A DNA stretch of 64,000 bases. Origin: Ensifer sp. LC163. Its GTDB lineage: Bacteria > Pseudomonadota > Alphaproteobacteria > Rhizobiales > Rhizobiaceae. The stretch is taken from the NCBI RefSeq assembly GCF_001695855.1, contig NZ_MBSS01000034.1, forward strand, positions 186,001-250,000. The letters are read 5' to 3'. The notes beneath the pieces are model-generated. The model was not told where the DNA came from. It did not search any database and saw only the letters and a program-made list of their open reading frames with translations. The position numbers were made by a program, and so were the translations under genes. Below, one piece after another: positions 24,097 to 28,851 of the stretch. How positions within the stretch are numbered: the first letter of the stretch is position 1; each line of letters opens with the position of its first letter.

Positions 24097-24122
24097 AAAA
24101 AGGGCGCCGTGGCACGCCCTTT
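24097..24122 (-). terminator. Intrinsic terminator, probably the original terminator of guaA
   Basis: On the minus strand the stem AAAGGGCG / CGCCCTTT with an 8-base loop runs into a T tract. The only minus-strand coding remnant just upstream of it is the duplicated guaA 3' end at 24166-24183. This suggests that it terminated guaA before a 3.1 kb insertion separated them. Confidence 0.75.
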
Positions 24123-24165: not shown

Positions 24166-24183
24166 CTATTCCCACTCGATTGT
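24166..24183 (-). other. Left attachment site: duplicated 3' end of guaA
   Basis: The minus strand reads codons for Thr-Ile-Glu-Trp-Glu followed by TAG, the same five C-terminal residues as intact guaA 3.1 kb away. The shared DNA core is TCCCACTCGAT (24170-24180 and 27293-27303), and 14 of 16 bases match over 24168-24183 versus 27291-27306, in direct orientation. No guaA homology continues beyond the Thr codon. Confidence 0.72.
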
Positions 24184-24391
24184 TCTAAATCTAGTTAGGC
24201 CATTGATATAGCTAGGTTTTTTATTCGTTGCCGCGCAAGAAGCCGACCCATGGGCCGTCAAAACGTTACAGTCTTGATTTCAAAGGGAAAAATAGCACGA
24301 AAATTTTTTGTGCGGTTTCGGCATCTATCGAAGTCGATCGCTTTTCCGGACCCACTTTGGGCAACTCAGGTGGATTTCACAGCGAACGAAG

Positions 24392-24403
24392 AAAGTACCG
24401 TCA
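24392..24403 (+). other. Integrase arm-like site, left end
   Basis: AAAGTACCGTCA, identical to sites at 26949 and 27096 near the right end. It lies about 210 bp inside the left guaA repeat. A weaker match (GGGCCGTCA) is at 24252-24260. Confidence 0.55.
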
Positions 24404-24486
24404 CTAACTTTCATAGCACAGCGCGCGCCACAACGCGACCCGCCGCGGCAGCGTCATCCAAGCGCCATCCCTCTCCGTTTGTAGGT

Positions 24487-24544
24487 GAACTGGATACCGC
24501 TGACAGTGCAAACTGGACACTCCCGGTAGCATAAACTGGACACC
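24487..24544. repeat. Three tandem AACTGGA(C/T)AC repeats at 23-bp spacing (possible insertion-sequence end)
   Basis: GAACTGGATACC (24487), AAACTGGACACT (24510) and AAACTGGACACC (24533) are spaced exactly 23 bp apart. Regularly spaced TGTCCAGTTT-type repeats are seen at the ends of some insertion sequences, IS21-like ones among them. No transposase frame accompanies them, so this is probably a solo end. Confidence 0.45.
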
Positions 24545-24563
24545 TCAAGACCCACCCGCTCCA

Positions 24564-24603
24564 AGGGCGCGACAGCACGGTTCAAGGTGCAATGTCGCGC
24601 CCT
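24564..24603. other. 11-bp perfect inverted repeat, AGGGCGCGACA / TGTCGCGCCCT
   Basis: The perfect stem (24564-24574 with 24593-24603) has an 18-base loop. It lies in the non-coding left part of the guaA island, just after the tandem AACTGGAC repeats. No T tract follows, so it is not a standard terminator. The rest of 24184-24850 shows no gene. Confidence 0.45.
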
Positions 24604-24850
24604 CACTTGCTGAACTTCTTCCCGGAGGGGGGCCGGGGGAGGTTGAATAACCTGTGGAAAGCCTGTGGGTCTTTTGGGACCGTTTGCGGACCGGCCTGAG
24701 CCTAGGAATCGTTTTGCTCAACTGCCCCTTCGAGACGGCTGACCGGCCAAAGACGCCCCTCAGGGGAGAGGGGGCCCGCGTTCCGTGGCACCGGCCCGCA
24801 ACCTTCAGAATATGATAGCCCGCGGCAACCGGAGAAGGGAATCTGTGCTT

Positions 24851-25744
24851 TCAAACCAGCATCGACTGCTGGGCGAAGATACCCGCCATCGCGCCGTGCG
24901 ATGATGCCGTGGTGACCGAGGGCATGAGGGGGTTGGCGAGGTCGCCCGCGGCGTAAATGCCGGGCATGCTGGTTTCGCGGCGCTCGTCGACCTTGAGGGC
25001 GATGCCGAGGGGCGTATTGACCGTGGCGAGGCCCAGTGATTCATGCAGGCTTGCGGACGGCTTGTTGCGCGGATGCGCGAACAGGATGTCAACCGCAACA
25101 TTGGCGCCGGTATCGAGCTTGACGTTGGCGGTATGGCCCCCGTGATGGGCGATCTCGATGATCCGGCCATCGACGACAGGTGTGTTGCGGCGCGCCAGAT
25201 CCTCCCGGATATCGGGCGGAATGTCGTGACCATCGGCGAAGAGCGTCAACGTTTCGGTCCAATCGTGGAAGAGCCTGACATGATTGTGCGACTGCGGGCC
25301 GGACCAGACGAGGCCCCAATGCTGGCCGGCGACTTCAAAACCGTCGCAATAGGGGCACGGCACGATGGAGGTGCCCCAGCCTTCGGCAAAGCCCGGAACA
25401 TCAGGCATCTGGTCGGCGACGCCATAGCTCAGGATCAGGCGGCGCGCCCCAAGGCTTTCGCCATCGGCAGTGAGGACAGAGAAATCGTCGATGGTGCCGG
25501 AGATGCTGTCGGCCCGAGCATTGACCAGCCTGACCGTGGGATAACGCGCCAGTTGCTGCCGCGCCTCGGCCAGGATGTCCAGCGGTGGCTTGTGATCGTG
25601 ACCGAGCAGGCCATGCGAGTGGCCGGCGAAGCGATTGCGCGGCAGGCCGGTATCGAGAACGGTGACCTTGCGGCGGGCACGGCCGAGCTGCAGGGCGCCG
25701 GCGAGACCGGCAAAGCTGCCGCCGATGATGATGACGTCATCCAT
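24851..25744 (-). CDS. Thioredoxin-reductase-like NAD(P)/FAD-dependent oxidoreductase
   Basis: 297 residues. The FAD-binding GGSFAGLAGALQLGRAR is at the N-terminus and the redox pair CPYCDG has Cys130 and Cys133. A distal FAD motif, GIYAAGDLANPLMPSVTTAS, lies near the C-terminus. The NADPH-domain glycine motif (GLVWSGPQSHNHVRL) is poor, so electron-donor binding may differ from true TrxB. The ATG at 25742-25744 has GGAG 9 bp upstream. It is transcribed with the upstream Rrf2-like stump from a promoter covered by a palindrome facing tetR. Confidence 0.87.
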   Translation of the reverse strand: MDDVIIIGGSFAGLAGALQLGRARRKVTVLDTGLPRNRFAGHSHGLLGHDHKPPLDILAEARQQLARYPTVRLVNARADSISGTIDDFSVLTADGESLGARRLILSYGVADQMPDVPGFAEGWGTSIVPCPYCDGFEVAGQHWGLVWSGPQSHNHVRLFHDWTETLTLFADGHDIPPDIREDLARRNTPVVDGRIIEIAHHGGHTANVKLDTGANVAVDILFAHPRNKPSASLHESLGLATVNTPLGIALKVDERRETSMPGIYAAGDLANPLMPSVTTASSHGAMAGIFAQQSMLV

Positions 25745-25787
25745 GGTGATAAGCTCCGTGTTGTGGATGGAGGGGATTGGGCTGGGC

Positions 25788-25934
25788 CTAGCGCGAAATA
25801 TCGTCCAGCGATACGCGCTCGAGACGGGCAGCGAGCAGGGCTTCGGCATCGGCGAGAAAGTCGCACATCACTGTGTTGACCGACCGGACGATGCCGCATT
25901 CGATATCGCCGGGCGGCCCGGATTTGGAGGACAT
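25788..25934 (-). pseudogene. Short frame resembling the C-terminal tail of an Rrf2-family regulator
   Basis: A 48-codon frame starting MSSKSGPPGDIECGIVRSVN. Its last part, CDFLADAEALLAARLERVSL followed by DDISR, matches the dimerisation helix and the terminal LADI-like segment of YwnA-type Rrf2 proteins. The DNA-binding half is missing; an in-frame TAG lies just upstream. It precedes the thioredoxin-reductase-like gene by 43 bp. Rrf2 regulators often sit next to such reductases, so this is probably the remains of the original regulator; a genuine small protein cannot be excluded. Confidence 0.45.
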
Positions 25935-25978
25935 CGTTGAAACCTACCCAATGGCTTGCACATTTTAGAAACTGTATG

Positions 25979-26010
25979 GTATCGTAATTCAAGAATTAGG
26001 ATACTGTCAA
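25979..26010. promoter_or_regulatory. TetR-type operator overlapping a sigma-70-like promoter
   Basis: A 26-bp near-perfect palindrome (25979-26004) reads GTATC, G, TAATTCAAGAATTA, G, GATAC. On the minus strand TTGACA (26005-26010) and TACGAT (25981-25986) form a promoter with an 18-bp spacer for the reductase operon. The palindrome covers the whole spacer and -10. On the plus strand TTGCAC (25956-25961) and TATCGT (25980-25985), also 18 bp apart, could drive tetR. Confidence 0.7.
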
Positions 26011-26024
26011 GGACTGGAATTGTC

Positions 26025-26672
26025 GTGACCGAAAACAGCCAGGGCCGACGCGGCCGGCCCGCCAACCAGGCGCTCGGCCAAACGATTGTCGACGCAGCAT
26101 ACGAACTCTTTGTGGAATTGGGTTTTCAAGCGGCGACATTGGACAAGGTCGCCCAGCGAGCGAAGATATCCAAGCTCAGCATCTATCGGCACTTCGAGAA
26201 CAAGGAGGCGCTGTTCAGCGCGGCCATCGCGGCCCGCTGCCATCAGTTTGCACCACAGGCCCTTTTTGAAGGCGTCGAGGGATCGGCCGAAGAGCAGCTC
26301 ATGGTGGCGGGATCATCCCTGCTTCGCACGCTGTTGAGCCCGGACGTCCGCAGTGTCGAAGCCATGGTTATGGCCGACAAGACGAATCAAAAGTCGTTAA
26401 GCAAGCTCCATTACGAAGCCGGCCCCGCCCATGTCATCGCCCAAATCGAGGCCCTCTTGCGTCAGTTGCACGCGAAGGCGGTTCTGAACGTGCCCGATCC
26501 TCTTCGGTCCGCCCGCTTGTTTGCCGCGCTTTTCAAAGGATCCGATCTCCTGATTATCGCACGCTTCGATGAGGCGAGAGCAGAGGACGACAACGAAATC
26601 GAATCCTATTGCCGGTCGGCCGTCACCATGTTCATCGCCGCGCACGGTGGCAACGACCACGCGGGCGGATAA
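26025..26672 (+). CDS. TetR-family transcriptional regulator
   Basis: 215 residues. The N-terminal helix-turn-helix is IVDAAYELFVELGFQAATLD, KVAQRAKISKLSIYRHFENK and EALF. The C-terminal ligand domain resembles the TetR_C AefR-like group (SLLRTLLSPDVRSVEAMVMA). The GTG at 26025 gives MTENSQGRRGRPANQ and is preceded by AAGGA. Divergent from the reductase-like gene, it is the probable repressor of that operon through the palindrome at 25979. Confidence 0.9.
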   Translation: MTENSQGRRGRPANQALGQTIVDAAYELFVELGFQAATLDKVAQRAKISKLSIYRHFENKEALFSAAIAARCHQFAPQALFEGVEGSAEEQLMVAGSSLLRTLLSPDVRSVEAMVMADKTNQKSLSKLHYEAGPAHVIAQIEALLRQLHAKAVLNVPDPLRSARLFAALFKGSDLLIIARFDEARAEDDNEIESYCRSAVTMFIAAHGGNDHAGG

Positions 26673-26948
26673 GCATTTGATTGCTCCGGGCAGCTTGGGC
26701 CGGCGCGCGCGGCCGAGCTTGCACAGATCGCGGCACCTCATCTTTCTCCCAACGATAAAAAGACGCTCGCATCTACCGCGGTCCAAGCTCCGGCCTGGAT
26801 GCGGTCGACGCTTCTCTCCATCGCAGATCCGGCAGCAGTCGGGACAACATTTGATAGATGATGCGACGGTGCCATCCGACGATATGCGATCGGGTCCGGA
26901 ACATCATCGGTACCGCAGCCAAAGCTGAAACTATGTATGTCGATAACT

Positions 26949-27107
26949 AAAGTACCGTCAGCGCGGAAATGTCATGCTACGGGCAATTTTCGTTATATAT
27001 TTCAAAGCGTTGACACACAGAAAAGTGCCGTCAAACCCTAAAAACGAATGACGGTACTTTTTAGAATGCTCTGTCGGATACGAAAAGCACCGTCAAAAGT
27101 ACCGTCA
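26949..27107. repeat. Cluster of five AAAGTRCCGTCA sites (putative integrase arm sites)
   Basis: Sites: 26949-26960 AAAGTACCGTCA (+), 27022-27033 AAAGTGCCGTCA (+), 27049-27060 TGACGGTACTTT (-), 27084-27095 AAAGCACCGTCA (+) and 27096-27107 AAAGTACCGTCA (+). The last two are directly adjacent. All lie 180-345 bp inside the guaA end of the island. Clustered repeats beside an attachment core are typical of arm-type sites of tyrosine recombinases. The gap 26673-27288 contains no gene. Confidence 0.62.
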
Positions 27108-27288
27108 GAGTGATCTGCTACAAGCTGCGAGCTGCGCCAGGCGCTCCGATAAACTTAACGATTTCAATGACTTGATAGGTTTGTCAATTCCATTGATAAT
27201 GTGCCCTGGCTAGCAGCCGGCCCTGCCCGCAAATCATTGTATTTTCTGCGAAATTCTACGCTAGAGCCGCCTATCATCGCCGTTTCCC

Positions 27289-27306
27289 TCACTCCCACTC
27301 GATCGT
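27289..27306 (-). other. Right attachment site within the last codons of guaA
   Basis: The last codons of intact guaA (Thr-Ile-Glu-Trp-Glu, TGA) share TCCCACTCGAT with 24170-24180. Everything after the stop, reading in guaA direction, belongs to the island. Confidence 0.68.
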
Positions 27307-28851
27307 GCCAGGCGGCTTCGAGGTCACGTCGTAGACCACGCGGTTGATGCCACGGACCTCGTTGATGATGCGCGTTGCCGCGCGGCCGAGGAATTCCATG
27401 TCGTAGTGGTAGAAGTCCGCCGTCATGCCGTCGACCGAGGTGACGGCGCGCAGCGCACAGACGAACTCGTAGGTGCGGCCGTCGCCCATCACGCCGACCG
27501 TCTGGACCGGCAGCAGCACGGCGAACGCCTGCCAGATGGCGTCGTAAAGGCCGGCCTTGCGGATCTCATCGAGATAGATCGCGTCGGCTTCGCGCAGGAT
27601 CTCGAGCTTCTCGCGGCTGATGCCGCCCGGGCAGCGGATGGCGAGGCCCGGTCCCGGGAAGGGATGGCGGCCGATGAAGCTGTCGGGCAGGCCGAGTTCG
27701 CGGCCGAGCACGCGGACTTCGTCCTTGAACAGCTCGCGCAGCGGCTCGACCAGCTGCATGTTCATGCGTTCCGGCAGGCCGCCGACATTGTGGTGCGACT
27801 TAATCGTCACCGACGGACCGCCGGTGAAGGAAACGCTTTCGATAACGTCGGGGTAGAGCGTGCCCTGGGCAAGGAAATCCGCGCCGCCGAGCTTCTTTGC
27901 CTCTTCCTCGAACACCTCGATGAACAGCCGGCCGATGATCTTGCGCTTGGTTTCCGGATCGCTGACGCCTTCCAATTCGCCGATGAAGCGGTCGGAGGCA
28001 TCGACGTGCAGGAGGTGCAGGTTGTAGTGCTCCTGGAACATCGAAACGACGTTCTTCGCCTCGTCCTTGCGCATCAGGCCATGGTCGACGAGGATGCAGG
28101 TCAGTTGGTCGCCGACCGCCTCGTGGATCAGGAGGGCCGCGACCGAGCTGTCGACGCCGCCCGAAAGCGCGCAGATCACCTTCTTGTCGCCGACCTGTTT
28201 GCGGATCGCGTCCACCGCCTTGGCGCGGTAGGCCGACATCGACCAGTCGCCCTTGATGCCGGCGATCTTGTGGACGAAGTTGGCGATCAGCTTGGCGCCG
28301 TCGGGCGTGTGCACCACTTCCGGGTGGAACTGCACGGCGTAGTATTTGCGCTTCTCGTCGGCGATAAAGGCAAAGGGGGCGTTGGCGGAGGTCGCCACGA
28401 CCTCAAAGTCCTCGGGGATCGCCGTCACGCGGTCGCCATGCGACATCCAGACCTGGTGGCGCGAGCCAAGGGACCAGACGCCGTCGAACAGTGCGCAGTC
28501 CTTTTCGACCTCGAGGAAGGCGCGGCCGAATTCGCGGTGGTGGCCGCTTTCGACCTTGCCGCCGAGCTGGGCGCACATGGTCTGCTGGCCGTAACAGATG
28601 CCGAAGACCGGCAGGCCGGAATCGAAGATCACCGACGGAGCGCGTGGCGAGCCGATGTCGAGGGTGGAGGCCGGGCTGCCGGAGAGGATGACGGCCTTCG
28701 GCTTCAGCCGCTGAAAACCTTCTTCCGCCGACTGGAACGGCACGATTTCGCAATAGACACCGGATTCGCGCACGCGCCGGGCGATGAGCTGCGTCACCTG
28801 GCTGCCGAAATCGACGATGAGAACGGTGTCGGGATGGGCTGTCTGGGTCAT
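27289..28851 (-). CDS. guaA: GMP synthase (glutamine-hydrolysing)
   Basis: 520 residues. It converts XMP to GMP using ATP and glutamine. The N-terminal class I amidotransferase domain has the nucleophile Cys86 in [10 protein letters not shown], and a His in QFHPEV. The central ATP-pyrophosphatase domain has the P-loop [15 protein letters not shown]. The C-terminal dimerisation domain ends KPPGTIEWE. The full length shows that island integration left the gene intact. Its own downstream flank, including the likely terminator, is now 3.1 kb away. Confidence 0.99.

Follow-up and report, generated by a model that had tools for sequence, protein, structure and literature searches.

An integrase-free mini-island at the 3' end of guaA in Ensifer sp. 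LC163, probably a cis-mobilizable element derived from a guaA-targeting integrative and conjugative element

Description

Here, we describe a short element without an integrase gene beside guaA (GMP synthase) in Ensifer sp. LC163, found in a 64,000-nucleotide stretch of contig NZ_MBSS01000034.1 (the window; positions 186,001 to 250,000, assembly GCF_001695855.1). The last codons of the intact guaA recur as a direct repeat 3,123 bp downstream, with 14 of 16 bases identical (24168-24183 against 27291-27306), and between the two copies lie a redox gene cassette, a gene remnant and non-coding DNA with repeated short sites (Table 1). The interval is very probably a cis-mobilizable element (CIME) from an integrative and conjugative element (ICE) that inserts in guaA, which would have kept its ends, lost its integrase and spread through the integrase of a co-resident ICE or by accretion. 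The original prediction, made from the sequence alone, had placed the guaA repeat as confirmed here by coordinates, and had proposed either a decayed island or a small non-autonomous element with ends that a related integrase could use; both descriptions appear to fit the sequence comparisons, and neither excludes the other.

Table 1. Features of the guaA-proximal element and its surroundings (positions in the window)
Feature	Position	Strand	Remarks
Hairpin like that after guaA in empty-site relatives	24099..24122	-	terminator scan made no call
Whole mini-island	24166..27306	no strand	3,123 bp core to core
Core repeat, distal side (attR), ATCGAGTGGGA	24170..24180	-	preceded by element-type GAACA
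Conserved distal-end DNA	24254..24340	no strand	common to other guaA islands (G040 81%, G023 77%)
Distal arm-type site, AAAGTACCGTCA	24392..24403	+	222 bp from distal core (G070 ICE: 221 bp)
NAD(P)/FAD oxidoreductase, thioredoxin-reductase-like (Pyr_redox_2)	24851..25744	-	open reading frame (ORF) open to 25849
TetR-family regulator (TetR_N and AefR-like C domain)	26025..26672	+	ORF open to 25956
Decayed C-terminal remnant of AbiEi-like antitoxin (DUF6088) gene	26672..26830	+	directly after TetR stop
Arm-type site	26949..26960	+	integrase start codon about 20 bp beyond in autonomous relatives
Inverted arm-type pair	27022..27060	27022 + (1 mismatch), 27049 -	15 bp between 11-bp arms
Extra doubled arm-type sites	27084..27107	+	27084 with 1 mismatch, 27096 exact
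Core repeat, guaA side (attL), ATCGAGTGGGA	27293..27303	-	
guaA (GMP synthase), intact	27289..28851	-	attachment target is the 3' end

By our reading, the far copy of the core still encodes T-I-E-W-E-stop. The 64 kb contain exactly two matches to the degenerate 14-mer TCCCACTCGATYGT when one mismatch is allowed (shuffle mean 0.08; 0 of 100 shuffles reach 2), which puts the core match above chance. The bare 11-mer of the core is weak by comparison and was rejected as sole proof, because it occurs six times in the 6.52-Mb genome. The predicted repeated sites were also borne out: six sites in the 64 kb match the motif AAGTACCGTCA, again with one mismatch allowed (shuffle mean 0.25), and all lie within the element, one near the distal core and five beside guaA, two of these five with one mismatch. 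Exact copies of AAAGTACCGTCA number four in the 6.5-Mb genome, and all four lie within the element. Their placement at both ends suggested, by analogy with lambda-type integrases, that they are arm sites, and we refer to them as arm-type sites; the arm pattern found no match in viral contigs.

Ends of this kind are present in islands that do carry an integrase. Two other genomes contain DNA similar to about 80 bp of the distal end, each time beside a guaA-like core, and a GAACA-like context precedes the core at the distal ends of other guaA islands. From core to arm, the distal ends in genomes G040, G023 and G070 align with that of the window, the arm of G023 having diverged, and a pattern built from the distal end matches 3 of 397 genomes of the order (the window's own, G040 and G070). 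G070 has its two cores separated by 70.5 kb, one of them within guaA, and exact arm motifs at 795842 (distal, 221 bp from the core) and at 865846, 865918 and 865946 (beside guaA). A 418-aa tyrosine integrase begins beside these arms, about 20 bp past the last arm site, with arm-binding, central and catalytic domains (Arm-DNA-bind_3, Phage_int_M and Phage_integrase, respectively). A Pfam search of 20 of the 31 large ORFs of the G070 island yielded TrbE- and TrbL-type proteins, a T2SSE-type ATPase, a DUF3363 protein, AbiEii and type I restriction proteins, on account of which the island looks like a trb-type ICE.

Used as a query at E 1e-110, the G070 integrase matches 32 of the 397 genomes of the order, the window's own not among them; loci L105-L134 cover 30 of the 32. 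Ten of 14 fetched loci with at least 86% integrase identity share one layout, namely core, about 180 bp, inverted arm pair, 71-73 bp, arm and ATG. The window has this inverted pair, with 15 bp between the arms where most integrase-bearing relatives have 16, and also the step, here of 73 bp, but no integrase follows. The arm motif varies with the integrase clade, as expected if the integrase reads it: AAAGTACCGTCA is present in 11 of the 14 loci at 86% identity or above, TATACCGTCA or GATACCGTCA at about 80% integrase identity, and other forms below. A search for the end sequences beside guaA-type integrases, as the original prediction had proposed, finds ends that resemble them in core, arm sequence and spacing at G070 and related loci. 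At a further locus, in Novosphingobium pokkalii (L141), the match to the guaA integrase jumps from residue 26 to 249, the catalytic part being kept and most of the arm-binding and central domains lost.

The interval was predicted to be integrase-free, and neither the element nor its genome yielded an integrase of the guaA family: none of the 14 PF00589 matches in the genome lies on the window's contig, and the guaA integrase query found no match in this genome at E 1e-3. Lacking its own integrase, the element is not an ICE or an integrative and mobilizable element at guaA; from its match to integrase-bearing relatives, it appears to retain both attL and attR. No conjugation or mobilization genes are found among the main ORFs (oxidoreductase, TetR regulator and antitoxin remnant), with no separate search made for relaxases.

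Empty sites occur in the genus. guaA was matched in 16 of 16 genus genomes, and about 18 kb after guaA was fetched from the 15 other than that of strain LC163. In three of these (G005, G007 and G010) guaA is followed, 35-40 bp beyond its stop, by a hairpin matching that of the window, which lies 43 bp beyond the stop of the far guaA copy. The prediction of a terminator at this position stands in part, in that the hairpin is the one following guaA in these relatives; a terminator scan of the window found none and left the hairpin uncalled, so the label rests on the relatives' match. The 3.1 kb is present in none of the 15 genomes, whose fetched DNA has no second exact core, no cluster of arm motifs and no similarity of at least 60 bp to the element at E 1e-4; one stray, single-copy arm-motif match lies 13.2 kb away in G001. 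Within these 15 genomes, then, neither outcome that would have refuted the original prediction was obtained: the 3.1 kb is not common to all relatives, and the core match is better than chance.

The right end of the element, on the guaA side, also occurs in Sinorhizobium sp. 8-89, Mesorhizobium sp. LSJC280B00, Rhizobium sp. P40RR-XXII and Rhizobiales AFS091992. With the window, five genomes share at this end a TetR cassette, the antitoxin remnant, a doubled-arm attL and no integrase, and the four other genomes have no guaA-family integrase beyond matches of at most 37% identity. The non-coding right end of the window is 98.5% identical to that of LSJC280B00 (610/619), 95.6% to 8-89, 95.3% to P40RR and 94.0% to AFS091992, and for guaA the values are, in the same order, 85.0% (966 bp only), 90.0%, 86.5% and 80.2%. 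By these values the window's element is nearest that of Mesorhizobium LSJC280B00, though its guaA is nearest that of 8-89. In all 10 pairs among the five genomes the right end is more alike than guaA, and distal similarity to 8-89 and P40RR ends at the core, the bases past it being different. A right end at 94-98.5% against guaA at 80-90% suggests that the element dispersed after it lost the integrase, and, with near-identical integrase-free copies present in other soil bacteria, the element was probably mobilized by machinery not its own.

Only the non-coding right end was compared, since the redox cassette is common on plasmids; for the same reason cassette identity across genera was rejected as proof of element transfer. 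The 20 plasmid matches listed are confined to query positions 614-2505, i.e. without the element ends. The oxidoreductase and TetR genes are divergent, and their starts were set by analogy with plasmid annotation. The predicted content of the interval, a redox cassette and non-coding DNA with repeated sites, is present, and to it is added the antitoxin remnant. The AbiEi-like antitoxin gene is whole in other genomes, in one of them (G223) within a core-bounded guaA remnant, and G070 has the same gene near its distal end. A methyltransferase origin of 26672-26830 was considered and is unsupported, as the region matches the antitoxin C-terminus. The G223 remnant itself (L291, 2611-4455; 1.83 kb) has no guaA-family integrase, and 1,236 bp of it align with the distal end of the G070 ICE at 90.7% identity. 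Relatives differ in the DNA that separates the cassette from the distal arm region (window positions 24356-24840), where Sinorhizobium 8-89 carries an additional PEMT/ICMT-type methyltransferase gene (L173, 2488-2973).

Scanning species genomes with the arm-pair pattern gave at least 118 stretches. Of the 118 listed, 82 were counted, each having a core and 1,400 bp or more beyond the arms, 27 had too little DNA beyond the arms (L234 included) and nine more were coreless; the 82 comprise 62 with a full-length integrase match, 13 with a partial match and seven with none. Four stretches from Paenibacillus, Bacillota and Clostridiales (L175, L176, L183 and L251) match the pattern with neither core nor integrase and are probably other inverted repeats. 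A doubled arm beside the pair, sought by regular expression in 132 pattern hits from 125 of 148 loci (L228, which the expression missed, and L234, which was truncated, were read by eye), occurs in three of the 132 and in none of the 69 with a full integrase, among the matches listed; doubled arm-type sites have so far been seen in integrase-free relatives only.

Core-bounded units stand in tandem in LSJC280B00 and in Mesorhizobium neociceri. In LSJC280B00 the shared unit sits between other core-bounded units, with no guaA-family integrase in the 33 kb read, and three such units follow guaA (L264-L265, 205648-220188), the outermost adjoining a 162-bp copy of the guaA 3' end; their cargo includes SDR, LysR, methyltransferase and sigma-factor-like proteins (ORFs named by eye). 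The doubled-arm end of M. neociceri is diverged (75%) and belongs to a 53.5-kb core-bounded region (L271-L274, contig C3; one core carries a mismatch) that adjoins the arm cluster of another such element. The 80 kb read there contain no guaA, which lies on another contig with a guaA-type integrase (74% identical) beside it. In AFS091992 the redox cassette is present twice within 22 kb of guaA (L268-L270; about 93% and 88% identical to that of the window), and another distal-type end lies at 296831, at a distance of 57 kb from guaA.

Discussion

The ends and the antitoxin remnant of the element match the trb-type ICE of G070, which suggests the kind of island it came from; its direct parent was not found. 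That parent would have been an ICE inserting in the last guaA codons and carrying a tyrosine integrase with an N-terminal arm-binding domain. In the simplest history, the middle of the ICE was deleted from the antitoxin gene to the start of the integrase, a loss that would have taken the conjugation genes, the toxin gene and the integrase and spared both attachment ends and a scrap of the antitoxin gene, and a widespread plasmid-type oxidoreductase/TetR cassette came to be placed between the ends. The arm-type sites may bind an integrase, and that of a co-resident guaA ICE could pair the ends of the element, excising and integrating it in trans. Alternatively, an ICE inserting beside the element could carry it in cis after tandem insertion (accretion). 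By either route the element would have spread between genera after the integrase was lost.

The integrase-free copies could instead be dead relics, islands that decayed independently and never moved again, an explanation that we find unlikely. The counts for the 82 loci indicate that integrase loss is common, the 1.83-kb remnant of a G070-like island in G223 is without attL arms, and the window's genome yielded no helper integrase; yet one derived right-end arrangement is shared by five genomes, which makes independent decay improbable, and the excess of right-end over guaA identity in every pair also argues against it. That excess also weighs against spread by homologous recombination of the guaA region, after transformation or transduction and with no part for an integrase, which seems to us quite improbable. 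All five copies are at guaA or in an adjoining array, so flanking homology exists, but guaA is less alike than the right end next to it, on the distal side the resemblance to 8-89 and P40RR goes no further than the core, and the LSJC280B00 element is bordered by other core-bounded DNA and not by guaA. There is next to no chance that the repeat is fortuitous and the interval merely variable intergenic DNA: the region after guaA does vary in the 15 other genus genomes, and the bare 11-mer is repeated in the genome, but the arm motifs are clustered, both ends match an integrase-bearing ICE, an empty site exists and relatives are bounded by cores.

Several observations count against a CIME that spread with the help of ICE integrases. 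Excision, a circle and transfer were not observed, movement being inferred, and with no helper integrase in the genome the element may be immobile now. Four of the 14 close integrase loci are without the full layout at one mismatch, and the guaA-family integrases of M. neociceri and M. metallidurans (73-74% identical) belong to a clade with a different arm motif. P40RR is without the distal arm and part of attL, and the left parts of AFS091992 and LSJC280B00 are different or rearranged, so only the window and 8-89 copies are intact at both ends. The element is rare, with more than 500 bp of the right end in 2 of 394 Rhizobiaceae genomes (its own included), and the redox cassette occurs alone on 86 plasmid records, none of which covers 80% of the query. 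DNA downstream of guaA is hypervariable in the genus (0.8-6 kb until conserved flanking genes resume), and differing distal flanks are therefore no proof of independent insertions.

A CIME origin would give one source of this variable DNA after guaA in rhizobia. The element is naturally dispersed, its ends are defined and a candidate integrase clade is available, which makes movement in trans by ICE integrases directly testable. More tentatively, the guaA 3' end in rhizobia may host transmissible integrase-free cassettes that have a doubled-arm end, use ICE integrases in trans and accumulate in tandem, a broader proposal that we consider possible and would not yet favor; if true, it would amount to an integron-like cassette system run by ICE integrases, the integron being an analogy for the tandem array.

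Comparison with known systems

A literature search of limited extent found no description of this element. The kind is already known, and what is new is an unusually clear example of a CIME: the suggestion that such a system is not commonly described was too strong, since the passages concerned define and name CIMEs (PMC5704250, PMC7563491) and report a guaA integrase moving a smaller att-bounded unit (PMC9376610). In that last case, the GIsul2 integrase was found by experiment to excise and integrate the CR2-sul2 unit, which is smaller than GIsul2. The unit resembles ours, by description only, in its guaA 3'-end target, and differs in lying at the 3' end of GIsul2 and having a putative CR2 transposase gene (PMC9376610).

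Closer in host are the guaA ICEs of Mesorhizobium and the site-specific IntG of its tripartite ICEs, which belong to the same bacterial order as the window; as outlined in the relevant part of PMC8627217, the alpha regions of tripartite ICEs have no integrase gene and depend on the integrases of the other parts. The window's element differs from these in having no transfer genes, and IntG, to which the original prediction ascribed guaA as target, is likened here by description only. Dehalococcoides ssrA islands are, in the sections consulted, likewise tandem and bounded by repeats of a gene 3' end, and 15 of them without an integration module have been proposed as possible CIMEs; they differ in their serine recombinase system and target (PMC3146451).

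In kind, the element resembles the CIMEs of streptococci, which, in the descriptions concerned, keep attL and attR, have lost integration and transfer genes, are small (1.2-13 kb in S. salivarius), have cargo that includes redox proteins and occur in tandem with other elements (PMC5704250, PMC7563491). The CIME survey states that its method could not identify standalone integrase-free elements (PMC7563491). Arm-site motifs together with the core, in place of an integrase gene, offer a route to such elements. Compared with the streptococcal CIMEs as these sources present them, the element described here has another target and host, arm arrays defined at both ends, a position alone beside guaA, and the same integrase-free right end in several genera.

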